Shown here piece after piece: positions 4,827-33,296 of a stretch of 44,843 bases of DNA; the stretch's first letter is position 1; every line of letters starts with the position of its first letter. The position numbers and the translations under genes are program-made. The notes beneath the pieces were generated by a model that made no database searches, had not been told where the DNA came from, and saw only the letters and a program-made list of their open reading frames with translations. The stretch is from positions 1-44,843 of the IMG/VR virus record IMGVR_UViG_3300034117_001174; one strand, 5' to 3'. The stretch is from a virus.

Positions 4827-4858
4827 TAACAAATAAGTCTAAACAAGGGGTGGCAAAT

Positions 4859-7591
4859 ATGTCAACAGTAAGAATTCAAGTAAGAAGAGGTACCGCTTCA
4901 CAATGGACCTCAGTAAATCCAATTTTGGCAGCAGGAGAAATGGGTGTCGAGTCAGACACAAACCTATTTAAATTCGGTAACGGATCTTCTACATGGACTG
5001 CCCTTGCATATGCAAACAATTCAGATGTAGCGATTGGTGAAATATCCCAAGACGCAATTAACACCGCCCTTTCAATGGGAGCGGGGCTCACAAAGTCATA
5101 CAACGATGGAACGAATACAATCCAGATAACAGTAGACTCAACAGTCGTAGCACTTAAGTCTTATGTAGACACTGGCGACGCAGCTTCAGTATCAACTGCA
5201 GCAGCAGATGCCACTACAAAAGCTAATGCAGCCCAAGCAGCCGCAATTTCAGCAGCAGCAGCAGATGCCACTACAAAAGCTAATGCAGCACGAGCAGCAG
5301 CAGAAGCAACAGCTGCAGCAGCACTTTCAGGTCTTTCAAATACAGTAGATTCAGATTTTGTACCAGTATCTGACCTTGGTCAGCCAAATGGTGTTGCAAC
5401 ACTTAATGCAAGCACAAAAGTTCCTACATCACAAATAGATACAGATATAATTGCTCTTAAGACATACGTTCAATCACAAGATACAGCTGCTATTCTTTCA
5501 GCTAACACTTACACTGATGGTCAGGTTGCTAACTTAATTGGTGGCGCACCAGCAGCACTAAATACTTTAATTGAACTTTCTACAGCTTTGGGTGCAGATG
5601 CAAACTTTTCAACAACAGTAACAAATGCACTTGCTTCAAAAGCACCACTAGCCGCACCAACATTTACAGGAGCAGTAGTTCTTCCTTCAACAACTTCGAT
5701 TGGAAATGTTGAGGGTGGGGAAATTGCTTACCTAGATGGAGTAACATCTTCAATTCAAACTCAAATTAATGACAAGGCTCCTTCATCTGGCCCAACATTC
5801 AGCGGCACAGTAACACTACCTTCAACAACTTCAATTGGTTTAGTAGACGCAACAGAAATTGCTTACTTAAACGGAGTAACATCAACAGTTCAGGGTCAGC
5901 TCGATGCAAAGGCACCACTGGCTGGACCAATATTTACTGGCTCAGTAACACTCCCATCAACTACAGCAATAGGCACAGTAGATGGAACAGAAATTGGATA
6001 CCTAGATGGAGTTACATCAACAATTCAGGGTCAGCTCGATGCAAAGGCACCACTGGCTGGACCAATATTTACTGGCTCAGTAACACTCCCATCAACTACA
6101 GCAATAGGATCAGTTGATGGAACAGAAATCGGATATCTAAACGGAGTAACATCAACAGTTCAAGGTCAGCTTGACTCAAAAGCACCACTAGCTGGACCGA
6201 TATTTACTGGCTCAGTGACACTACCTTCTACAACAGATATTGGACAGGTAACCGCAGAAGAAATTGGATACGTAAATGGAGTAACATCTTCAATTCAAGG
6301 CCAGCTCGATGCAAAAGCACCATCCGCAGGCGCAGTATTTACAGGAAATATAACCCTTCCATCAACAACATCAATAGGACTAGTTAATTCAACTGAAATT
6401 GGATACTTAGATGGAGTTACATCTGCGGTTCAAGTACAACTTGATGCACTAGCGCCAAAAGCAAACGCAGTATTTACAGGAACATTTGAAGCCCCAGTAG
6501 CAACAATTACTGGAGCCATGATGGCAAACGGAACAGTTACATCATCCCAGATTGCAGATGCAACAATTGCAACAGGCGATCTTGCAGACGGAGCTGTAAC
6601 TTCAGCTAAAATTTTAGACGGAACTATTCTAACAGGAGATCTTGCAGACGAAGCTATAACATCAGCTAAGATTGCAAATGGAACTATTGTAGATGCAGAT
6701 ATAAATGCGTCAGCAGGAATAGCCACATCAAAGATTGCTGGACTAGATACAGCACTTGGACTACGGGCTACTCTAGCAGGTCCAACATTTACAGGTACAG
6801 TAGTTCTTCCGTCAACAACTTCAATAGGCCTAGTTGATTCAACAGAAATTGGATATGTAAATGGAGTAACATCTGCAATACAGACACAGCTGGATGCAAA
6901 AGCACCACTTGCCTCACCAACATTTACAGGTACCGTCTCAGGAATTACAAAGACCATGGTTGGACTAGGATCTGTTGATAATACAGCGGATGCTTCAAAA
7001 CCAGTATCAACAGCACAGGCTACAGCAATCGCAGCTGCCAAATCAGAAGCAATTGCAGATGCAACTTCACAAGTTAATGCACTATTAACAGGTGCACCAG
7101 CAGCTCTTAACACACTTGATGAACTTGCTGCAGCACTTGGTGATGATGCAAACTTTGCCTCATCAGTAACAACCTCTCTTGGACTAAAAGCACCACTTGC
7201 CTCACCAACATTTACAGGTACAGTAACAGTTGCAGCAGCTGGCGTTGCGTTTACAGATAAAACACAAACAAAGGCTGGCGTACCTTCACGAACACCAATT
7301 GCAAGTACAATTTCTGCAAGCACAACATTGGCAGGAGGCCTACAAGATAACATGGTTCCGCTAGCTGGAGCTGTAGCAATTACAATTGGCGATGCATCAA
7401 ATGCACTGTATGCTGTTGGAGAATCAGTCGATTTCTACCAGATATCAGGAACTGGTGCAAGCTTTGCTAAAACAGGATCAGTCAACCTTCTCTTCACACC
7501 AGGCGCATTGCTTAGAACAACATATTCTTCAGCAACTGCACAAAAAGTATCTTCAACTGACTGGTTGATATACGGAGATTTGAAAGCTTAA
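4859..7591 (+). CDS. Large tail fibre with Mtd-type N-terminus and 45-residue repeats
   Basis: The roughly 910-residue fibre begins 'MSTVRIQVRRGTASQW' and continues to 'FGNGSSTWTALAYA', the N-terminal domain seen in major tropism determinant-like and hyaluronidase-like phage proteins. An Ala-rich coiled coil follows, then six tandem 45-residue repeats (residues about 275-544; core 'EIGYLDGVTS' and 'QLDAKAPLAGPIFTG'), a segment of 'ITSAKIANGTI'-type repeats, a seventh 45-residue copy, the 'GITKTMVGLG' motif and a tip ending 'WLIYGDLKA'. The tip resembles that of the 2-871 fibre. I chose ATG 4859 because AGGGG (4846-4850) is 8 bases upstream; the in-frame GTG at 4850 overlaps that site. Likely a receptor-binding fibre. 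Confidence 0.8.
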   Translation: MSTVRIQVRRGTASQWTSVNPILAAGEMGVESDTNLFKFGNGSSTWTALAYANNSDVAIGEISQDAINTALSMGAGLTKSYNDGTNTIQITVDSTVVALKSYVDTGDAASVSTAAADATTKANAAQAAAISAAAADATTKANAARAAAEATAAAALSGLSNTVDSDFVPVSDLGQPNGVATLNASTKVPTSQIDTDIIALKTYVQSQDTAAILSANTYTDGQVANLIGGAPAALNTLIELSTALGADANFSTTVTNALASKAPLAAPTFTGAVVLPSTTSIGNVEGGEIAYLDGVTSSIQTQINDKAPSSGPTFSGTVTLPSTTSIGLVDATEIAYLNGVTSTVQGQLDAKAPLAGPIFTGSVTLPSTTAIGTVDGTEIGYLDGVTSTIQGQLDAKAPLAGPIFTGSVTLPSTTAIGSVDGTEIGYLNGVTSTVQGQLDSKAPLAGPIFTGSVTLPSTTDIGQVTAEEIGYVNGVTSSIQGQLDAKAPSAGAVFTGNITLPSTTSIGLVNSTEIGYLDGVTSAVQVQLDALAPKANAVFTGTFEAPVATITGAMMANGTVTSSQIADATIATGDLADGAVTSAKILDGTILTGDLADEAITSAKIANGTIVDADINASAGIATSKIAGLDTALGLRATLAGPTFTGTVVLPSTTSIGLVDSTEIGYVNGVTSAIQTQLDAKAPLASPTFTGTVSGITKTMVGLGSVDNTADASKPVSTAQATAIAAAKSEAIADATSQVNALLTGAPAALNTLDELAAALGDDANFASSVTTSLGLKAPLASPTFTGTVTVAAAGVAFTDKTQTKAGVPSRTPIASTISASTTLAGGLQDNMVPLAGAVAITIGDASNALYAVGESVDFYQISGTGASFAKTGSVNLLFTPGALLRTTYSSATAQKVSSTDWLIYGDLKA
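5681..6490 (+). repeat. Six tandem 135-bp repeats (45 residues each) in the large fibre
   Basis: Units start at 5681, 5816, 5951, 6086, 6221 and 6356; a seventh lies apart at 6806-6940. Each begins Leu-Pro-Ser-Thr-Thr and ends near Phe-Thr-Gly. An 83-base block is identical between the copy starting near 5891 and the one near 6026, so part of the array is recent. Confidence 0.9.
6902..6970 (+). repeat. 69-bp perfect dispersed repeat, copy B
   Basis: Partner of 434-502, about 6.4 kb away in the large fibre gene. It sits at the boundary between the 45-residue repeats and the distal part of that fibre. Confidence 0.85.
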
Positions 7592-9177: not shown

Positions 9178-9849
9178 ATGGAAAAAAATTTTTCCTATTC
9201 ATCCAAAGAAGAACTTGCACCTGGAGTATGGGTGTATAGAGATGTATTCAAGCCAGAGTTTGATATTATAAATAGACTTGAAGGCACACTAAAATCTAGT
9301 AATGGTCTATACAACTGGCAAGACGCAACCGTCGGATATAGAGAAAAAATGCCATCCTATCGTGACTGTGTAGATTTTAAAATAAACTTCTTTGACTATC
9401 CTGGTAAAGATCCATACATGGTTAAATTTGATGAAATATGGAAAGACTCCAGAGACGCACAAAAAGTTGCATTAGATGATTACTCTGCTTTTTATAATAT
9501 TGAATTAAAATATTGGGAAGCAATGAACTTTATTAGATATGGCGAAGGCCAACACTTCTCGTATCATTCAGATCACGGATGGTCTTATATTTCAGTAGTA
9601 TCTATGGTTGGCTATTTGAATGATGATTATGAAGGCGGCGGACTAAGATTTGATAAGATAGACTTAGAAGTAAAGCCAAGAGCTGGAGATCTATATATAT
9701 TCCCTTCATCGTATCTATTTTCACATAGCGCATTGCCAGTAAAATCTGGAACAAAGTATTCAGTTGTTACAATGACAGACTACAATGATGCCACACACAC
9801 TCAAGAATTCTACAGACAGTTTAAATCAAGCGCATCAGAGCCAGAGTAA
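9178..9849 (+). CDS. 2OG-Fe(II) oxygenase, prolyl 4-hydroxylase-like (paralogue 1)
   Basis: The 223-residue protein has a complete double-stranded beta-helix active site: H130-x-D132 ('YHSDHGW'), distal H183 and K193, which would bind 2-oxoglutarate. Lys at this position is typical of prolyl 4-hydroxylases. The family signature 'YLNDDYEGGGLRF' followed by 'KPRAGDLYIFPS' lies between them. Such enzymes couple 2-oxoglutarate decarboxylation to hydroxylation of a peptide side chain. Its TAA overlaps the ATG of the next gene (TAATG), so translation is coupled. Substrate not known; the PPxF tracts encoded upstream are the obvious candidates. Confidence 0.88.
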   Translation: MEKNFSYSSKEELAPGVWVYRDVFKPEFDIINRLEGTLKSSNGLYNWQDATVGYREKMPSYRDCVDFKINFFDYPGKDPYMVKFDEIWKDSRDAQKVALDDYSAFYNIELKYWEAMNFIRYGEGQHFSYHSDHGWSYISVVSMVGYLNDDYEGGGLRFDKIDLEVKPRAGDLYIFPSSYLFSHSALPVKSGTKYSVVTMTDYNDATHTQEFYRQFKSSASEPE

Positions 9850-10574
9850 TGTTTAATATAGATGTATACAGAATAAGTCAGTCACCAGCAGAGATAAAAC
9901 AATTAGGCATTAAAAGAGACTGGATGGATGACACTGATGACTCACACGCATACAAATGTTTTCCATTAAGCTTAAGCAATTCACTAGGATGGGGACTTTA
10001 TTTCCCAGAAGACATAACTTTTATCTGGGATGGCATTTCTTCATCCAATACAAGCGATCACGTCAAAATTCTTAAAGGCGAAAAGTATGCTTATACAAGT
10101 AGAGAAAATGCAACTATAAGTTTTAGAACAGGCTTACTGATAAGAACAGATCCAGACGTTACAATGCTTGCAATGCCTGCTCCAAATTATATATTAGACG
10201 GAGTACAGCCATTTACAACATTAATAAGTACATCGTTTTTTAAAGGTGAGTTCCCAGTAGCTTGGAGAATAACAAGACCAAATGTAGAAATAACAATTAA
10301 AGCTGGTACACCAATAGCTTCTTTGTTGCCAATATCATTATCAGGACTAAATAATTCTGAAGTAAATTTAAAATCAATGTTTGATTTAGAGCCAGGGTTT
10401 TTTCCTGGTGAAGATTATGGTAAAATAGTCCATGACATTAATTCTTCAGGACGGTGGACAAATTTTTACAGAGATGCTGTAGACCATAAGGGTAAAAAAA
10501 TTGGAGATCATGAAGTTAAGTCTTTAAGGCTTAAAGTCAATGATGGAAAGCCAGAGATGTGCAATGACAAATAA
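9849..10574 (+). CDS. DUF6065-like protein (paralogue A)
   Basis: The 241-residue protein has the layout I associate with DUF6065: 'YKCFPLSLSNSLGWGLYFP' near residue 35, a middle segment around 'APNYILDGVQPFTTLI', then 'ITIKAGTPIASLLPISL' near residue 155. It is probably an all-beta domain. The same three blocks are recognisable in the next gene, so the two are paralogues. No metal-binding set is evident. It is wedged between oxygenase genes with overlapping ends, which suggests a role in the same modification step (substrate presentation, or a companion subunit). This is inference. Confidence 0.6.
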   Translation: MFNIDVYRISQSPAEIKQLGIKRDWMDDTDDSHAYKCFPLSLSNSLGWGLYFPEDITFIWDGISSSNTSDHVKILKGEKYAYTSRENATISFRTGLLIRTDPDVTMLAMPAPNYILDGVQPFTTLISTSFFKGEFPVAWRITRPNVEITIKAGTPIASLLPISLSGLNNSEVNLKSMFDLEPGFFPGEDYGKIVHDINSSGRWTNFYRDAVDHKGKKIGDHEVKSLRLKVNDGKPEMCNDK

Positions 10575-11291: not shown

Positions 11292-11987
11292 ATGTCAATG
11301 CAAAAACAGATTAACACAAATGAAGGTCATGATTATAAAAAACTTGGCTCAATAACCCCATCTGGATTTTTTGGTAATTCAGTAGATAATATTGTTGAAT
11401 TAAAGAACTTCGTAACCGATGAAGAAGCAAGAAGATTAACAAATTTTGCTCTTAATAATAAGACTTGGGATATAACAAGCTCTCACACAAATGAAAATGG
11501 AACAGTAATCTATGATGCAAATGTTTGGGCGGATAGAGTTTGCACAAGAAGATCAATGGAAATTTCAGCTGATCCGACAATTGTGAATCTTGTAGAAAGC
11601 CTAATTACAAGACTACAGCCAGAAGTAGAAAAGTTTTTTAATGTAAAAATCCAAGCCACAGGACCAGCAATTGTTAGATGGCCAATTGGAACAAGACAAG
11701 ACCCACATGCAGATAAAGAACTGCATGAGGGCCCAGATGCTGGAACACCAAACGATTTCCCACATTATGACATTGCATCATTGTTTTATTTTAACGATGA
11801 CTATGAAGGCGGAGAGCTATTTTTCCCAGTACAAGGCATTGAGATAAAGCCAAAAGCTGGATCTGCATATTTTTTCCCAGGAGACATGCATTATGTTCAT
11901 GGAGTCAGACCAATTATATCTGGTAATAGATACACCTCTCCATTCTTTTGGAACATACTAGAGCACACTGGAGATAAGAAGCCATAA
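11292..11987 (+). CDS. 2OG-Fe(II) oxygenase, prolyl 4-hydroxylase-like (paralogue 2)
   Basis: The 231-residue protein has H139-x-D141 ('DPHADKEL'), distal H203 ('YVHGVRPI') and R213 ten residues on ('GNRYTSPFFW'), so all iron and 2-oxoglutarate ligands are present. The signature 'YFNDDYEGGELFF' with 'IKPKAGSAYFFPGD' is closest to bacterial prolyl 4-hydroxylase-type proteins. An N-terminal helical part (residues 30-110, 'VTDEEARRLTNFALNN') is also family-typical. Its stop overlaps the next start (TAATG). Substrate unknown. Confidence 0.9.
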   Translation: MSMQKQINTNEGHDYKKLGSITPSGFFGNSVDNIVELKNFVTDEEARRLTNFALNNKTWDITSSHTNENGTVIYDANVWADRVCTRRSMEISADPTIVNLVESLITRLQPEVEKFFNVKIQATGPAIVRWPIGTRQDPHADKELHEGPDAGTPNDFPHYDIASLFYFNDDYEGGELFFPVQGIEIKPKAGSAYFFPGDMHYVHGVRPIISGNRYTSPFFWNILEHTGDKKP

Positions 11988-25172: not shown

Positions 25173-28100
25173 TTGGTCGATCAAAATATTAATACCAACA
25201 TAACTGCGACGGCGAATTTTAGTAGCCTTACAGCGCAGTTACAGGCCGTTACAGCCCAACTCATAAAACTTCAAACGACTACTGTTGGATTAAACCAAAA
25301 GCTTCAGGGTCAAATAGGACAGATGAACAGGTCCTTCGTAGATACTATGCGATCAACGGGCCAGTTTTCTTCCCACTTTGTTACATTATCATCTGATGTA
25401 GATAAGTTTGGTAAAAACTTAGACGCAGGAAGAATGAAGCTTGGAAAATATTTTAATACATGGCAAAGCCATGCAAAGGGCACAACCAATATAGTAAAAG
25501 AATTAGCAAAGCAGCAAGTAATGCTGCAAAATGCTGTAGTACAACCACTTGGTAAAAATGCTCAGGGCTTGATGCAATACAACGTAATGGTTGCACGAGG
25601 TCTGGACGAAAACAAAAACAAGCTTCAGCTCTTAAGACAAGAGCAAGCAATCATGAACAAGGTAATGCAAGATGGATCTAACCAATTAATTAACTGGGGT
25701 AAGAATACACAGTGGGCTGGTAGACAGCTTACCGTTGGACTTACTGTACCAATTGCTGCCTTTGGCGCAGCAGCATCAAAAGCGTTCAGAGAGGCAGACG
25801 CTGAGCTTATTAGACTACAAAAGGTTTATGGCGGACTAACTGCATCGACTACTGCTGAGCTTGAAAAGGTTAGAAGAGATGTAACTGGTATTGCCAAAGA
25901 AATGGCATCGGCATATGGAGTTTCATTTAAAGACACAATTGCACTCGCTGCAGATCTTGCTGCCACTGGTAAACAAGGCACAGATTTAATGAAAGCAACA
26001 CAAGAAACAACAAGACTTGCGGTACTTGGTGAAGTAGATAGACAAGATGCAATGAAAGCAACTTTAGCTATTCAGAATGCCTTTAAGCAAAACACACAAG
26101 AGCTTACAGAATCAATTAACTTCCTCAACGCAGTTGAAAACCAGACATCAACAAGCCTTGCAGATCTAACTGAAGCAATTCCAAAAGCTGGTCCAGTTAT
26201 TAAATCATTGGGCGGAGAAGTACAAGATTTAGCTCTTTACCTGACAGCAATGAAAGAAGGCGGAGTAAATGCTTCAGAAGGAGCTAACGCAATTAAATCT
26301 GCAATGGCATCTCTTATTAACCCTACAAAAGTTGCAAGAGAAATGTTTGCTGGATTTGGAATCGATATAGCTGGAATTGTTACATCTAATGCTGGAGACC
26401 TAACAGGAACAATTATTGCACTACAGAAATCTTTAGATAGTCTTGATCCACTAAGCAAATCAAAAGCAATTGAGCAGCTATTTGGAAAGTTCCAGTTTGC
26501 TAGAATGTCTGCTCTATTTGAAAACCTTGGAAAAGAAGGAAGCCAGACGCTGCAGGTTTTAGATTTGATGAAAGCCAGCACACAAGAATTAGCAGCTATC
26601 TCTGACCGAGAATTAAAGATGATGACAGAGTCTGCATCTGGTAAGTACCGCAGAGCTCTAGAATCAGTAAAGGCAGACCTTGCTGTTATTGGAGAATCTT
26701 TCTTAAAGATAAATACTTTTATATTAAATGTTATTGATGGAGTTGTTAAGTTTGTTGGAAAACTTCCTGGACCAATTAAATCTATATTAACATTTGTGGG
26801 CGGGCTGACTGCAGTTGCTGGACCACTTATCATGCTTACTGGTGTGCTTGCAAACTTCTTTGGATACATAGTAAAGGGAATGTTTAGCCTAAAGCAATTC
26901 TTTAAAGGCGGAGAGCAGTTCAAGCTTCTAACCCCAGAGCTAGTTGCAGCAGATGCTGCAGCAAAAGCAGTAGGAGAATCATTCTATAGCGATGCAAAGG
27001 CAGCAAAGGTATTTGAAGATGCAGTACTAGCACTGTCTAGATCATTTGATATTTTGCAAACAAAAGCAGCAATGGCAACACAGGCAACTCACTCAAGTGT
27101 AAACGTTAGCACAATCGCAGGTAATGCTGTCACTTCAGGCGCAGGGTTTGATAGAGTTGTTGACAAAAACAGTCCTTATTTGGGCAAGCCTTACTCTAGA
27201 GATATGTCTCACACAATTCCATCTGGACAAGAACAGCTTGGAACAATATTTGGAGTAGTTCCTGGAACTGGTCCAGTAAATAGAAAGATTAGTAATAACC
27301 CACAGATGTACATGGACGGAGATCTTCCAAGAGTTCCTGGAGTAACTTCTGTAAACAGCGTTTCAACAGGCATAGTAGCAAGCGAAGCCGCAAAGTGGCA
27401 CTCAATGACAGCGGCAATTGCAATGCAGTCAAAAGAAGAACTTGCATTACTTAAGCAAGAAGTTGCTGCAACTGGAACTGTAACAGCAGAACTATCCGCA
27501 TCGTATTCAGCAATGCTACCACCAATGGTAGAGCTAACATCTATGGCAGCTGCAGAAGGTGGAGCAATTGTAGCAGAACTTAAGGCTGGCAAAATAACTG
27601 TAGATCAAGCAAGAGCAAAGATTATTGCACTTAATCAACAGGTAGAAGCAATGATGGCAGAGACATCCCAAATGGTTGCATCAAGCATGGGAAGAACAAT
27701 TAATCTTACAACAGTCCCACTGACATCACAGCCAACAGTAGATCCAATAACTGGAAAATCTAACATGAAAGAAATGTTCCACAAAGGAACAACAAAGAAT
27801 CTTGTAGATAAGATTGCAAGATCTCTTGGAGTTAGAACTTCTGGCGGAGGCTACAGTACAGAAACAACAAAGCCTATTATTAGAAGAAATGAAGGTGGAA
27901 TGGTATACGATCCTTCAAAGCATGGATCAGTTGTACCAGGACCAGCAAATGTAGATTACGATATGATCCCAGCAAAACTTCCAGAAGGAAGCTATATACT
28001 TAATCAAGAAGCATCACGTAAAAATCCTAGCCTAGTAAACATGGCAAAGAACAAATACGCAGGCGGAGGAAAAGTTGTAGATGCAATATTAACACCAAGA

Positions 28101-31100
28101 GAAACATACTTTGACCCAGAGTTCACAGCTGCAAATAAGCCAATGCTTGATAGAGCAAATAGTGGATCAAGAATTGAATTTAATGCTGGCGGATTCCTTG
28201 GCGGAATGGTAAAGAATGGAATTAGAAATTATGGAAAGATGCAAGACATATTCTCTGGAAGAAATGCTGGAGTTTCTGAGCTTGAGAGAACAACATCTTA
28301 CATTAAAGCATTAAGAGAAAACAAATATCAAGATAATATTGTTCCAAACTTAATTCAAAATGATGCTGCAGCGATATTAAAATTTTCTAAAGATCCAACA
28401 ATGACTCCCGCAAAAGCTGTCGCTATTGCAGAAAATGCAATACGAGCATCTATGGAAAGCCATAAAGAATATGTAAAAACTGGCAAAGGCTTAACATATA
28501 CAGAGTCTCAAAGAAAGTTTATGGAGTCAAACTTTCCAGAACTTGTGATTAAAAGACCAAAAGGAATGACAGACAAACAATGGAAAGATTACAAAAGAGG
28601 TAAATCCCCAGCAGATCCAGTTGCAAGAAAAGCAATATTTAATATTTTAAAGAATAGGTTCCCTGGAGTACCAATTCATTATAACCTTGATCGTGCTCAC
28701 ATAGAAAGAATGTTTGGGTCTACCGCTGGTAGAGGATACTTTGGTGAGGCTGCACACGATCCATTTAACAGATACGGAAATGATTTACAAAGAAGAAAAA
28801 TAGTTAATGACGTAGTTCCTCTAACAAATCAAGAAGCGCTTGCAAGATCGGAGCAGCTAGCAAAAGCTTTAGGGTTTGTAGATGTAGATGATTACATGAG
28901 ACATGTTCCAATAATTGAAAAATGGATAACTACTGGAAAGTGGAATGGATCTAAGCCAATACCAGAAACCCTTGTTCGTGCACTTGGTGGAGACATGAAG
29001 ATATTTAATGCATCAAGAACACCAAAGAAATCTAAATCATCCGTTCCAACAACAATTATGATAAGAGGCAGAAGAGTAAAGCTTGCAAATAGTGGTGGAA
29101 TGATCGGCGGAATTGTAAGTCAAGGTAAGCATGCTTACGGAGACCCAGCCGCCGCCGCAAGACTAAAAGCCTTCGCAGACGCACAGCAAGTAAGAAGAAC
29201 AGCGCAGCATCAAAAAAATCTTGAAAGATTCCCTTGGATTAAACCACAAATTGATGCATACAGAGCGTCTAAAAAGGGACACTTCCTTGGAATGCCAAGA
29301 GGAATTAAAGCAGTAGAAGAGCAAAGAAAAGCAAGACTTACAATGGAAGAAATTAATTCTTCTGTAATGTCTGGCAGATTTGCTGACATGGATCCAACTG
29401 ATTTTGGAATGCTAGTTTCTCCATCAATTGGAAGAAGCTTCCCAGTTTCTGGTATCGGTGGACTATACAAAAAGCCAGATGGATCTATGGTATTTGTTAA
29501 ACCAGCAATGAGCGAGACTGAAGCTTTGGCGGAACAAAGAGCAACAATAATTGCAAGAGAAGCACATGGATTAAATTCTCCAAGACAAGAAATTAGAACA
29601 ATGATAGATCCAACAGATGCTACTGGAAAGAGAAAATTAATTGTTTTAGAGTCACCATTTGATGAAGCATTTGCAAATTCAACTGGAACTTTCACACAGG
29701 CAGAATACTTCAAACAGCTCGTAGCAGCCAATCTAAGAGGAGATAGAGATCTTAGTTCAAGTAACCTATATGGCTCTACTTTAGCCGATGTAGGGACCGC
29801 TGGTGTATTTAAAATGGCATCTAACGCACAAGGCAGAAGAGAATATTCAGATGACATGCCATCTATGAAAGATCAGGCACGTATAAATTTACTTGGAGTA
29901 AAGGGTGGGGCTAAAAAATTCTTTGCTGAAACCACATTAAATATACCAAAGGGAATGAAAGCAAAAGATTATCATCAGGCAATGATTGATGAGATAGACG
30001 AAGTTCTTCCTAAACTAGAAAAAACAATAACTGAATTTAATTTAAGTGTAGATGAAAGACAATACTACAAAGCAATGATAGACAGATTAAAGGATGGCAG
30101 ATTAGTTAATTGGGAAGAGTTCCACGGGATTCACTCTGCAGTAAAGACATCTGCTCCAAAAGCATTATCACCAGCCGCACTTCTTAAATTAAAAACAGAG
30201 TCAGAATTAAGAATGAGACAAAGAGGACACGCTGCCAGCCTCTCAGATAATGCATTTAAGAACAATGGCAATGGATTTAATATGGGCGGAATGATTCAAG
30301 CAAGAGCAAAGGGCGGACCAGTAAATTCTGGACAGCCATATCTTGTTGGAGAAAAAGGACCAGAACTATTTGTTCCAAAAAATAATGGCGGAATAGTTTC
30401 AAACTACGCATTAGGCGGAATGGTAAGATCAAACAAAACTGGATATGGTAAATTTGGTAATTTTAGAACATCAGTAAAAAATAATGGACTTAGGTCTACA
30501 GTAAGAGGAAGCTCTTCTTTAAGAGGAGCGCCCCAGGTAGATGCCAACGGAGTTGCTGTCCCAGTAGATCAAAATTCTGTAATGGCAACATCAATGGCTG
30601 GTATGGCAATGATGATGGGAGGCTCACAGGTTCCAGGAGTTGCTGGACAAGGAATGCAGTTTGCTGGAATGGCTATGCAAATGGCACCAATGCTAAAAAT
30701 GATTGGGCCAATGGTAAAGGGCATGGGAACATTTGGCGGACTTCTTGCAAAAGCAAGGACCATTGGAATGGCAGCATTTACCGCACTTAGAATTGGAATT
30801 GCTGCACTGATGGGTCCAGTCGGTTTAGTCTCTATAGCAATCGGTGGACTAGTCGCCCTATTCTTAAAAATAAGAGCAGAAAGAGCACAAGATAGAAAAG
30901 AAGAAATTCTTTCAAACGGAATAACTAAAAAAGGCGCAGAAGAAGCTGGAATTAAATACAACAACGTATCTAATTCAATTAAAGATGTCAACGCACAGCT
31001 TGAGCTAACTCGCGCAAAAGGCAAAGCTGCATTTGAGAATTTAAATAGCGCTGGAGTTCAAGGCTTATCATTAACTATTGCTGAACTTAAGAAAGCAATT

Positions 31101-33296
31101 AAAGAAGCTAAAGCAAGTCAAAAAGAACTTGTTGAAGGATTTAGCAATGCTGGAAGTGGCAGTGCATCAACTCAAGAAAAACAAAAGATTGTTAATGAAA
31201 TGGCTACCAACCTAAAGGCACAATTTGTTGCCGCAGGAATGTCAGCGCAACAAGCAACAAATAAAATATTTGCAATAATCAAAGCATCAAAAAATGCAGA
31301 CATGGCTTTTAATGCAATATCTTCAAAGGGTTTTGGAGAAATTATTGATAAGACTACTGCTGCAACATCTATGGTAGAAAAGCTTAACAAGAAAATGGCA
31401 GAGACAAGGCTTGTTCAAGCCTCTGGCGGTGGCTATAAAGCAGAGTCTTCATTTAAGGGAGAAGCACTAGGTAATGCGTTGTCTAATACAACCTCAGCGA
31501 TAGATGCAAATATGAAGGCGCTAGTTGGAACAAAAGATGCAATGGGTAATGTTATAGATGAAGCCACAGCCTACAAGATGACAATAGATGACATAAATTC
31601 TAAGACAGGGTCAACTACTACTCTCACCAAAGAGCAGATAGAAAGTCTCAAGGAGACACACCCAGCCCTACAAGAAATTTTAAATACAACAGACACTACT
31701 GCAAGCGCATTTGCTAAATGGCGAATTGTTTTGTCAGGAGTTAGAGTTGATCTGAAGCATATAACGGCAGAAGAAGCAATCGCTATAGCTCAATTTGAAG
31801 AGGGACTAAACTCTGCAATAGAAGCGCAAGAAAAATCTGGCGTTGGAGTACTAGGCAAATCTCAAACAATAATTAACAAGTTACAGTTGCAAATAGGCAA
31901 GGGATTGGCTGCACAACAAAAAGCTCACAATCAGGCTATGGGTAACATAGAAGATGAAATTAAAGCTATAGACAAAAAGATTAAAAAGATTCAAGAAGAA
32001 GCAGATGCAAAGATTAAAGCAATTGAAGATGAGCAAAAGGCTAATGACTTTAATGCAAATATGCAGCAGCTACAAATTGAAAATCAAGATGCTTTAGCTA
32101 AAGGCGACATGGCTGGCGCTGCGCTTACACAAATTAAGATTAGACAGCTTGCCGACCAAAGACAAAAAGAATTAGCAATAAATGCAATAAGAGAAAAAGA
32201 AGCAAAAGATATAGACGCTTTAAATAAAAAGAAAGAAGGTCTTGCTGCAAAGCAGGAAGCCTCAGCAAAGAGACTTGCAGCGCTTCAAGAAGCAGCAGCA
32301 AAGACTCAGATTAGACTTGATAAAATTAAAACTTATCAACTAGAATATGAAAATATACTTAAAGAAAAAGCAAATATTTCTTTGATGGCAGAAGGCAAAG
32401 AAAGAGATGAAGCGCTTAAAGCATGGAGAGGAAACCTAGGAGCATTAGGGCAAAACCTTTCTAAAGATGCGACTGGCAAAGACTCAGCGCTAGCTGGAAT
32501 GGTAAAAGATATATTTCAAGGAACAATGATTGGATCTAAGGGAGAATCTCTTGCTGGAACAACAACTAGAAACTATGTTGGAAGAAGAATGGTTGAGTCG
32601 TATGTTCCAGGAATTGCTGATGCAAAGGCTGGCACTGCAGCATCTGATTTATCATTAAAAGCAGCCGACTCTATTAAGGGAGGATCATCATTAAATGATA
32701 TCGTTCTTGCGGTAAGAGGGCAAGGCAAAGACGGAGGCTGGTCAAAAGCAACTGCTATTCCAGTGGACACAAATTACGATAAATATAAAACTAGAGATGG
32801 TGGTATACTTACAGATGATTCTAAGGTAAAAATTGCAAAAGAGTTAGGCTTAGAAAAAGATCAATATTTTAAATATCTTAATAAAACATATAGAGTTTAC
32901 GATCCAAATGACGGAAGCAAGATAGTCAGACAGGCAAAAGGCGGACCAGTATTTGGTGCTGGAAGTGCGACATCAGATTCTATTCCAGCTATGCTTTCAA
33001 ATGGTGAGTATGTAATTAATGCTAAGTCTGCATCTGCATACGGATACCAGAATCTTGATACAATAAATAGAATGGCTCAAGGCGGATTAGCAGTAAGATA
33101 TGATATTCCATCTGGATCTAAAATTAAAGCCAATATGGCAACTGGCGGAGTAGCAAATTCTTCACAAACAGTATATAATGTTAACATAGAGCTTAATGGA
33201 ACAAATGTAACTGTTGACGATGTAATGAATAAATTTGACCAAAGAATGCGAAACGTTAACGCAACAATGGGTCGAGTAGTAACGAATAGGAAGTGA
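25173..33296 (+). CDS. Tape measure protein (2707 residues) with embedded kinase-like segment
   Basis: TTG start, AAGGAG nine bases upstream. Residues about 185-440 form the conserved phage-tail tape measure core ('READAELIRLQKVYGGL', 'YGVSFKDTIALAADLAATGK', 'MKEGGVNASEGANAIKSAM'). Hydrophobic segments lie near 530-570 and 1803-1906. Three Gly-Gly/IPAxL-type modules typical of tape measure ends occur at 906-946, 1699-1751 ('SGQPYLVGEKGPELFVPK') and 2586-2640 ('SDSIPAMLSNGEYVINAKSA'). A coiled coil spans 2243-2386. Residues about 960-1690 look like an insertion: a His/Asp-rich segment near 1166-1215 and a kinase-like one at 1430-1549 (K1443, D1526, N1531, D1539). The protein sets tail length and is ejected during infection. 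Length suggests a very long tail, but the globular inserts make a simple estimate unsafe. Confidence 0.92.
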   Translation: MVDQNINTNITATANFSSLTAQLQAVTAQLIKLQTTTVGLNQKLQGQIGQMNRSFVDTMRSTGQFSSHFVTLSSDVDKFGKNLDAGRMKLGKYFNTWQSHAKGTTNIVKELAKQQVMLQNAVVQPLGKNAQGLMQYNVMVARGLDENKNKLQLLRQEQAIMNKVMQDGSNQLINWGKNTQWAGRQLTVGLTVPIAAFGAAASKAFREADAELIRLQKVYGGLTASTTAELEKVRRDVTGIAKEMASAYGVSFKDTIALAADLAATGKQGTDLMKATQETTRLAVLGEVDRQDAMKATLAIQNAFKQNTQELTESINFLNAVENQTSTSLADLTEAIPKAGPVIKSLGGEVQDLALYLTAMKEGGVNASEGANAIKSAMASLINPTKVAREMFAGFGIDIAGIVTSNAGDLTGTIIALQKSLDSLDPLSKSKAIEQLFGKFQFARMSALFENLGKEGSQTLQVLDLMKASTQELAAISDRELKMMTESASGKYRRALESVKADLAVIGESFLKINTFILNVIDGVVKFVGKLPGPIKSILTFVGGLTAVAGPLIMLTGVLANFFGYIVKGMFSLKQFFKGGEQFKLLTPELVAADAAAKAVGESFYSDAKAAKVFEDAVLALSRSFDILQTKAAMATQATHSSVNVSTIAGNAVTSGAGFDRVVDKNSPYLGKPYSRDMSHTIPSGQEQLGTIFGVVPGTGPVNRKISNNPQMYMDGDLPRVPGVTSVNSVSTGIVASEAAKWHSMTAAIAMQSKEELALLKQEVAATGTVTAELSASYSAMLPPMVELTSMAAAEGGAIVAELKAGKITVDQARAKIIALNQQVEAMMAETSQMVASSMGRTINLTTVPLTSQPTVDPITGKSNMKEMFHKGTTKNLVDKIARSLGVRTSGGGYSTETTKPIIRRNEGGMVYDPSKHGSVVPGPANVDYDMIPAKLPEGSYILNQEASRKNPSLVNMAKNKYAGGGKVVDAILTPRETYFDPEFTAANKPMLDRANSGSRIEFNAGGFLGGMVKNGIRNYGKMQDIFSGRNAGVSELERTTSYIKALRENKYQDNIVPNLIQNDAAAILKFSKDPTMTPAKAVAIAENAIRASMESHKEYVKTGKGLTYTESQRKFMESNFPELVIKRPKGMTDKQWKDYKRGKSPADPVARKAIFNILKNRFPGVPIHYNLDRAHIERMFGSTAGRGYFGEAAHDPFNRYGNDLQRRKIVNDVVPLTNQEALARSEQLAKALGFVDVDDYMRHVPIIEKWITTGKWNGSKPIPETLVRALGGDMKIFNASRTPKKSKSSVPTTIMIRGRRVKLANSGGMIGGIVSQGKHAYGDPAAAARLKAFADAQQVRRTAQHQKNLERFPWIKPQIDAYRASKKGHFLGMPRGIKAVEEQRKARLTMEEINSSVMSGRFADMDPTDFGMLVSPSIGRSFPVSGIGGLYKKPDGSMVFVKPAMSETEALAEQRATIIAREAHGLNSPRQEIRTMIDPTDATGKRKLIVLESPFDEAFANSTGTFTQAEYFKQLVAANLRGDRDLSSSNLYGSTLADVGTAGVFKMASNAQGRREYSDDMPSMKDQARINLLGVKGGAKKFFAETTLNIPKGMKAKDYHQAMIDEIDEVLPKLEKTITEFNLSVDERQYYKAMIDRLKDGRLVNWEEFHGIHSAVKTSAPKALSPAALLKLKTESELRMRQRGHAASLSDNAFKNNGNGFNMGGMIQARAKGGPVNSGQPYLVGEKGPELFVPKNNGGIVSNYALGGMVRSNKTGYGKFGNFRTSVKNNGLRSTVRGSSSLRGAPQVDANGVAVPVDQNSVMATSMAGMAMMMGGSQVPGVAGQGMQFAGMAMQMAPMLKMIGPMVKGMGTFGGLLAKARTIGMAAFTALRIGIAALMGPVGLVSIAIGGLVALFLKIRAERAQDRKEEILSNGITKKGAEEAGIKYNNVSNSIKDVNAQLELTRAKGKAAFENLNSAGVQGLSLTIAELKKAIKEAKASQKELVEGFSNAGSGSASTQEKQKIVNEMATNLKAQFVAAGMSAQQATNKIFAIIKASKNADMAFNAISSKGFGEIIDKTTAATSMVEKLNKKMAETRLVQASGGGYKAESSFKGEALGNALSNTTSAIDANMKALVGTKDAMGNVIDEATAYKMTIDDINSKTGSTTTLTKEQIESLKETHPALQEILNTTDTTASAFAKWRIVLSGVRVDLKHITAEEAIAIAQFEEGLNSAIEAQEKSGVGVLGKSQTIINKLQLQIGKGLAAQQKAHNQAMGNIEDEIKAIDKKIKKIQEEADAKIKAIEDEQKANDFNANMQQLQIENQDALAKGDMAGAALTQIKIRQLADQRQKELAINAIREKEAKDIDALNKKKEGLAAKQEASAKRLAALQEAAAKTQIRLDKIKTYQLEYENILKEKANISLMAEGKERDEALKAWRGNLGALGQNLSKDATGKDSALAGMVKDIFQGTMIGSKGESLAGTTTRNYVGRRMVESYVPGIADAKAGTAASDLSLKAADSIKGGSSLNDIVLAVRGQGKDGGWSKATAIPVDTNYDKYKTRDGGILTDDSKVKIAKELGLEKDQYFKYLNKTYRVYDPNDGSKIVRQAKGGPVFGAGSATSDSIPAMLSNGEYVINAKSASAYGYQNLDTINRMAQGGLAVRYDIPSGSKIKANMATGGVANSSQTVYNVNIELNGTNVTVDDVMNKFDQRMRNVNATMGRVVTNRK

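Follow-up and report, generated by a model that had tools for sequence, protein, structure and literature searches.

It is reasonably likely that residues ~1408-1660 of the tape measure protein (TMP) encoded in the window, meaning the whole 44,843-nucleotide stretch that was analysed (IMG/VR record IMGVR_UViG_3300034117_001174), form a divergent, probably active kinase-fold enzyme that the TMP of a siphovirus carries as exchangeable cargo and that would be delivered as the DNA enters. The activity of the domain, its delivery and its action on the host are inferred. The features on which this reading is built are as follows, in window positions.

25173..33296, + strand: TMP, 2707 aa, TTG start, carrier of the kinase-like module (open reading frame, PF10145, PHROG families)
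25893..26486, + strand: PhageMin_Tail (PF10145) region in the N-terminal part of the TMP, aa 241-438 (Pfam)
26775..26873, + strand: first hydrophobic membrane-type segment, aa 535-567 (Kyte-Doolittle, window 19)
about 29394..30152, + strand: kinase-like domain, aa ~1408-1660, modelled as 29310-30161 (AlphaFold2, PDB fold matches, conservation)
29499..29501, + strand: K1443, beta-3 lysine (110/110; third strand of the model)
29532..29534, + strand: E1454, candidate alpha-C glutamate (106/110; helix after strand 3 of the model)
29742..29765, + strand: catalytic loop D1524-[RK]-D1526-L-x-x-x-N1531, equivalent of HRD...N (conservation; profile alignment on kinase RDIKPEN)
29787..29795, + strand: D1539-V-G1541, equivalent of DFG (D and G 110/110; profile alignment to kinase DFG)
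30774..30881, + strand: second hydrophobic segment, aa 1868-1903, past the cargo region (Kyte-Doolittle, window 19)

Among 110 distinct domain sequences, G1430, K1443, D1524, D1526, L1527, N1531, D1539 and G1541 are each invariant, and E1454 is retained in 106. As the most divergent pair in this set is only 38% identical, the conservation of the catalytic residues, judged from the alignment, is beyond what chance would leave. An earlier note had proposed a kinase-like segment on the basis of G1429, G1430, K1443, D1524-R-D1526, N1531 and D1539-V-G1541, all of which were found at those numbers, and the loss of K, D or N in homologues that it had considered did not occur. The span that it gave, 29460-29820, holds the catalytic part, while the folded domain is wider, at about 29394-30152. 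With a dN/dS of 0.11-0.21, the domain is shown by computation to be under purifying selection. An antisense open reading frame at 29210-29857 was rejected as a real reading because it has acquired stops in most relatives, which leaves the + strand frame as the genuine one.

The AlphaFold2 model, built on a 109-sequence alignment, reached a pLDDT of 92.4 and a pTM of 0.92; a model from 6 sequences only had a poor C-lobe and a pLDDT of 55. The order of elements in the full model is b1-b2-b3 (K1443)-aC (E1454)-b4-b5-helix-DxDLx3N loop-two short strands-DxG-helical C-terminal part, the last of these comprising ~120 residues, so that in the model the N-lobe is in kinase order and the C-lobe is atypical. 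In a fold search of the PDB, the top 50 matches were all protein kinases, yet they were weak (best E 5.4e-3, probability 0.2-0.84, TM-score at most 0.32), with no match at E <= 0.001. A viral structure library (BFVD) returned four phage-protein matches at E < 1e-3 and probability 1.00, with TM-scores up to 0.55: a protein of Mycobacterium phage Onyinye labelled as an ADP-ribosyltransferase (ART; 1340 aa), a second ART-labelled protein (1220 aa), a portal-labelled protein (1201 aa) and a 273-aa "transferase". When the domain profile is compared with Ser/Thr kinases, the highest-scoring local alignment falls exactly on RDIKPEN...DFG, at a score that 3/100 column shuffles also reached. The predicted fold and the PDB matches together support the kinase-like reading of the earlier note.

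The domain is best described as a divergent family, as it has no sequence-family match in Pfam, NCBIfam or PHROGs and no PDB sequence match with single or profile queries; weak matches to NanE, RaiA and others were dismissed as chance. The protein kinase family PF00069 has no match in the window's own record at E <= 10 and is absent from the families listed for the 109 members. The marks of this eukaryotic-type Ser/Thr/Tyr kinase family were likewise not found: the glycine loop reads GxSFPVxGxGG and the canonical GxGxxG is absent, Asp1524 sits at the His position of HRD, the N-to-DxG spacing is short at 8, and neither an APE motif nor a kinase C-lobe signature was recognised on inspecting the alignment. 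The marks found are those of the protein-kinase-like fold superfamily, namely the beta-3 Lys with the alpha-C Glu and the D-x4-N with the D-x-G. The likeness to HipA that had been suggested from the D-to-N spacing was not supported. HipA-type kinases share this spacing of five, and a lysine and a glutamate in comparable order, but the window's own record has no PF07804 match at E <= 10 and the hhalign profile score against HipA was reached by 30/100 shuffles, within the shuffled range, and membership in this family was dropped. Low hhalign probabilities are not evidence against a kinase, since PF00069 compared with HipA, both true kinase families, also scores low and the method has little power here.

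The carrier of the domain is identified as a TMP by the PF10145 match at aa 241-438 (E 1.3e-26) and by matches of the same open reading frame to several PHROG tape measure families. Its neighbours encode a portal, a maturation protease, a capsid protein, a head-tail adaptor, an Ig-domain tail protein and minor tail proteins, and no sheath gene was found among the ten open reading frames scanned around it. With these head and tail genes present and no sheath in that scan, the virus is most likely a siphovirus. Over its N-terminal 676 residues, the TMP is 24-37% identical to its counterparts in Streptomyces, Gordonia and Rhodococcus phages, the G+C content is 39%, and an actinobacterial host is likely. 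The contigs are metagenomic, and we infer both the freshwater or aquatic habitat and the host assignment.

Several further features of these genomes were observed. The window encodes a 913-aa protein with an Mtd_N (major tropism determinant N-terminal) domain (4850-7591, E 1.5e-12) and a 201-aa protein with a PASTA domain, a cell-wall binding domain (873-1478, E 6.7e-06). Two 2OG-Fe(II) oxygenases flank a DUF6065 protein 5' of the head genes (9178-9849, 9849-10574 and 11292-11987), a group that is possibly a surface or glycan modification cluster. CHAP, LysM and OmpA-type domains occur in the C-terminal halves of related TMPs (L036:10793-18148, L270:14300-21004, L134:10925-17626), fitting a part in cell-wall penetration. 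One contig binned as a cyanobacterium MAG (L296, CAINGU010000031.1) encodes a TMP sharing 45% identity with the N-terminal region of the one in the window; the contig probably belongs to a phage.

Relatives of the kinase-like domain are encoded by up to 247 stretches across four IMG/VR scans; none was found among bacterial and archaeal genomes sampled at one per species, and none by tblastn in cultured phages, where the only matches were to tape measure linkers or due to chance. The TMP N-terminal region is also present in 225 of the 232 open reading frames that bear the domain, the remaining seven being partial: L013, a stretch taken from the TMP in the window itself, and frames cut at a contig edge. 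The domain therefore lies in a virion protein of DNA entry. Compared with more distant TMPs, it is typically 43-62% identical to that of the window, and the N-terminal core 36-41% identical.

The position of the domain within the TMP behaves as an exchangeable slot, the surroundings of which are given here.

28230..29072, + strand: preceding module, aa ~1020-1300, no Pfam match, variable among relatives
29088..29141, + strand: upstream Gly-Gly boundary motif NSGGMIGGIVSQGKHAYG, aa 1306-1323, like the motif just 5' of kinase-like or ART-like modules elsewhere
30279..30377, + strand: downstream boundary NMGGMIQARAKGGPVNSGQPYLVGEKGPELFVP, aa 1703-1735, common to TMPs with an ART-like module in the slot

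A scan that used the N-terminal region of the TMP as query yielded 52 distinct open reading frames of at least 1750 aa, picked by their N-terminus only; of these, 17 have a kinase-like module, 8 an ART-like module and 27 neither. Since both modules are missing from more than half of these TMPs, infection does not require the module. In the cultured relatives Tomas, Jay2Jay, Wakanda, Quaran19 and Francesca (phages of Streptomyces and Rhodococcus), the TMP is shorter and the domain is absent. Of the open reading frames in the window's TMP clade, 86 carry the kinase-like module, 45 the ART-like module and 0 both, counts that are biased by the choice of loci; three TMPs of other clades hold the two together (L190, L354 and L357).

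Backbones with differing slot content are 82-93% identical over their first 950 aa, and pairwise comparisons place the change of content at the slot. L307, with an ART-like module, is 86% identical to the kinase-bearing L022 over aa 1-1022 and 62% identical past the slot, while L226, with neither module, is 86% identical to the kinase-bearing L027 before the slot and 77% after it. In L218, window residues 1-1323 and 1710-1752 align (56% and 67%, respectively) and the stretch between them differs. L254 represents an empty site in which both flanks of L026 are present and the kinase domain is absent: it reads NSGGEIPGYVGGGAIGN, where L026 reads NSGGEIGG...[domain]...NAGGVIGN. A Gly-Gly-type motif lies within 140 residues 5' of the kinase domain in 96/144 open reading frames and of the ART-like domain in 47/50, and the junctions that could be compared cleanly fall at such motifs, which, judged by sequence, look like module borders. 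These computations show that the kinase-like module is exchangeable among closely related TMPs. The preceding module (aa ~1020-1300) can be aligned in some kinase-bearing TMPs and is missing or replaced in others. A further TMP module without a Pfam match, RRIGAGFGPTGAPKPSxYESAPWGVNSL...SPIDKDIL, was observed in L226 (3287-4609), L222 (9578-11080), L254, L026 and L022, and can sit directly 3' of the kinase-like module.

The ART-like module, which takes the kinase slot in sister TMPs, was found in about 50 distinct TMPs. Its motifs occur in order, with R in 50/50, S in 49/50 and E-x-E in 48/48 of the non-gapped sequences, so that at the level of motifs the sister module carries the complete R/S/ExE signature of ADP-ribosyltransferases. 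The term "ART-like" is the proper one, as only one of ten members matches PF03496, and that at E 0.05; a comparison with PDB sequences gave no match. Modules with R, SxS and ExE were seen in the TMP slot of L218 (13475-14422), L219, L264, L266, L270, L278, L292, L235 and L246 and at ~60 loci of a wider set.

In the proposed mechanism, the TMP would exit the tail during DNA entry, its hydrophobic segments would engage the host membrane, and the kinase-like module would enter the host cytoplasm, where it would phosphorylate, or otherwise nucleotidyl-modify, a host protein with host ATP before phage gene expression, a role like that of the injected ADP-ribosyltransferases of other phages. The support for delivery is circumstantial. 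During injection, the TMP of lambda is located at the inner membrane (PMC13190303), and the cargo region of the window's TMP is flanked by its two hydrophobic segments. Delivery into the host is made more likely by the sister TMPs that hold an ART-like module in the same place, as phages such as T4 are known to inject enzymes of the ART class (PMC9503650). The need of the two chemistries for ATP and NAD+ would also fit cytoplasmic delivery, since both cofactors are cytosolic.

Other readings of the domain were weighed against injected cargo. A kinase-fold enzyme that is not injected and instead acts on phage or envelope components, such as tail or capsid proteins at assembly, would have ATP at hand, since late synthesis of the TMP takes place within the producing cell, and would equally conserve its catalytic residues; we consider it unlikely, as backbones that are 82-93% identical carry an ART-like module or no module at this position, which would be odd for an assembly function, and as swapping of this kind is typical of host-directed cargo. 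Kinase-fold families with other chemistries exist, and the Asp in place of the HRD His, the N-to-DxG spacing of 8 and the helical C-terminal part are atypical enough that AMPylation, glutamylation or phosphorylation of a small molecule or lipid deserves the same low weight, with the fold and profile matches, weak as they are, pointing to protein kinases and not to APH or HipA.

Two readings without a kinase-fold enzyme were given still less weight. That the domain is an inactive structural one, lengthening the TMP or binding a partner, would accord with an activity that is predicted only and with the existence of phages with and without it, but is very unlikely given that five key catalytic residues are invariant down to 38% identity. 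A coincidental likeness with no kinase fold at all could draw on the low TM-scores and on the lack of a PDB fold match at E <= 0.001; against it stand the confident model, the kinase order of its strands, the kinase identity of the top 50 matches and the motifs placed in register by profile alignment, and we regard it as slightly less probable again.

The reading as an injected kinase-fold module can be set beside several known systems. T7 gp0.7 is, as the window's module is predicted to be, a phage-encoded kinase acting on host proteins, and is made after infection and not carried in the virion. It is named as a precedent by Iyer et al. 2017 (PMC5512222), who described divergent kinase domains, chiefly from phages of Verrucomicrobia-Chlamydia and Bacteroidetes, in large phage polyvalent proteins presumed to enter the host along with the DNA. 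These polyvalent proteins share with the present case a divergent kinase in a multidomain phage protein and ARTs as alternative effectors; their kinases are described as having lost the whole C-terminal subdomain, with an insert that separates the catalytic-loop His from the Asp and a Gln in the final strand of the N-lobe (PMC5512222). In contrast, the window domain has a ~120-residue helical C-terminal part and Asp-x-Asp without an insert, and its last N-lobe strand, around LIVLESP, has no Gln by inspection. Its carrier also differs in being a TMP, and the words "tape measure" do not occur in PMC5512222. The earlier suggestion of a new kind of injected effector was therefore too strong, kinases in phage-injected polyvalent proteins having been proposed in 2017; what is new here is the TMP as carrier, the kinase-like family and the exchangeable slot.

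MuF is a head protein whose variable module is C-terminal. The MuF polymorphic toxins of temperate phages are virion-associated, with exchangeable enzymatic modules and a proposed delivery into bacteria (PMC5576092), and differ from the present case of an internal module in a TMP. T4 Alt and other phage ARTs fused to head proteins (PMC9503650) are likewise virion-borne enzymes that enter with the DNA; the window's module has another chemistry and a tail location, and the link to this type is the ART-like module in the TMP slot of sister phages. The Sle1-type effectors of actinobacterial contractile injection systems are TMP-related, packaged in the tail-like particle and translocated to membranes (PMC13277306), and share swappable functional domains in a TMP-related protein, but they belong to bacterial contractile systems, their functional domain is C-terminal, and no description of a kinase or ART among them was found. 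The open-access literature searched yielded no account of a kinase or ART inside a TMP.

To our knowledge, the enzymes known inside TMPs are cell-wall hydrolases. If the present reading is true, the tail ruler would also deliver host-modifying enzymes, and this would offer a handle on how phages take over uncultured aquatic bacteria. The kinase-bearing, ART-like-bearing and empty TMPs are a ready set for asking what TMP cargo does. More tentatively, at a little under an even chance, the TMPs of a large group of freshwater phages could be general effector-delivery platforms in which kinase, ART and other modules are shuffled at Gly-Gly linkers and injected first. The virus may use its tail ruler for delivering swappable enzymes into the infected bacterium.
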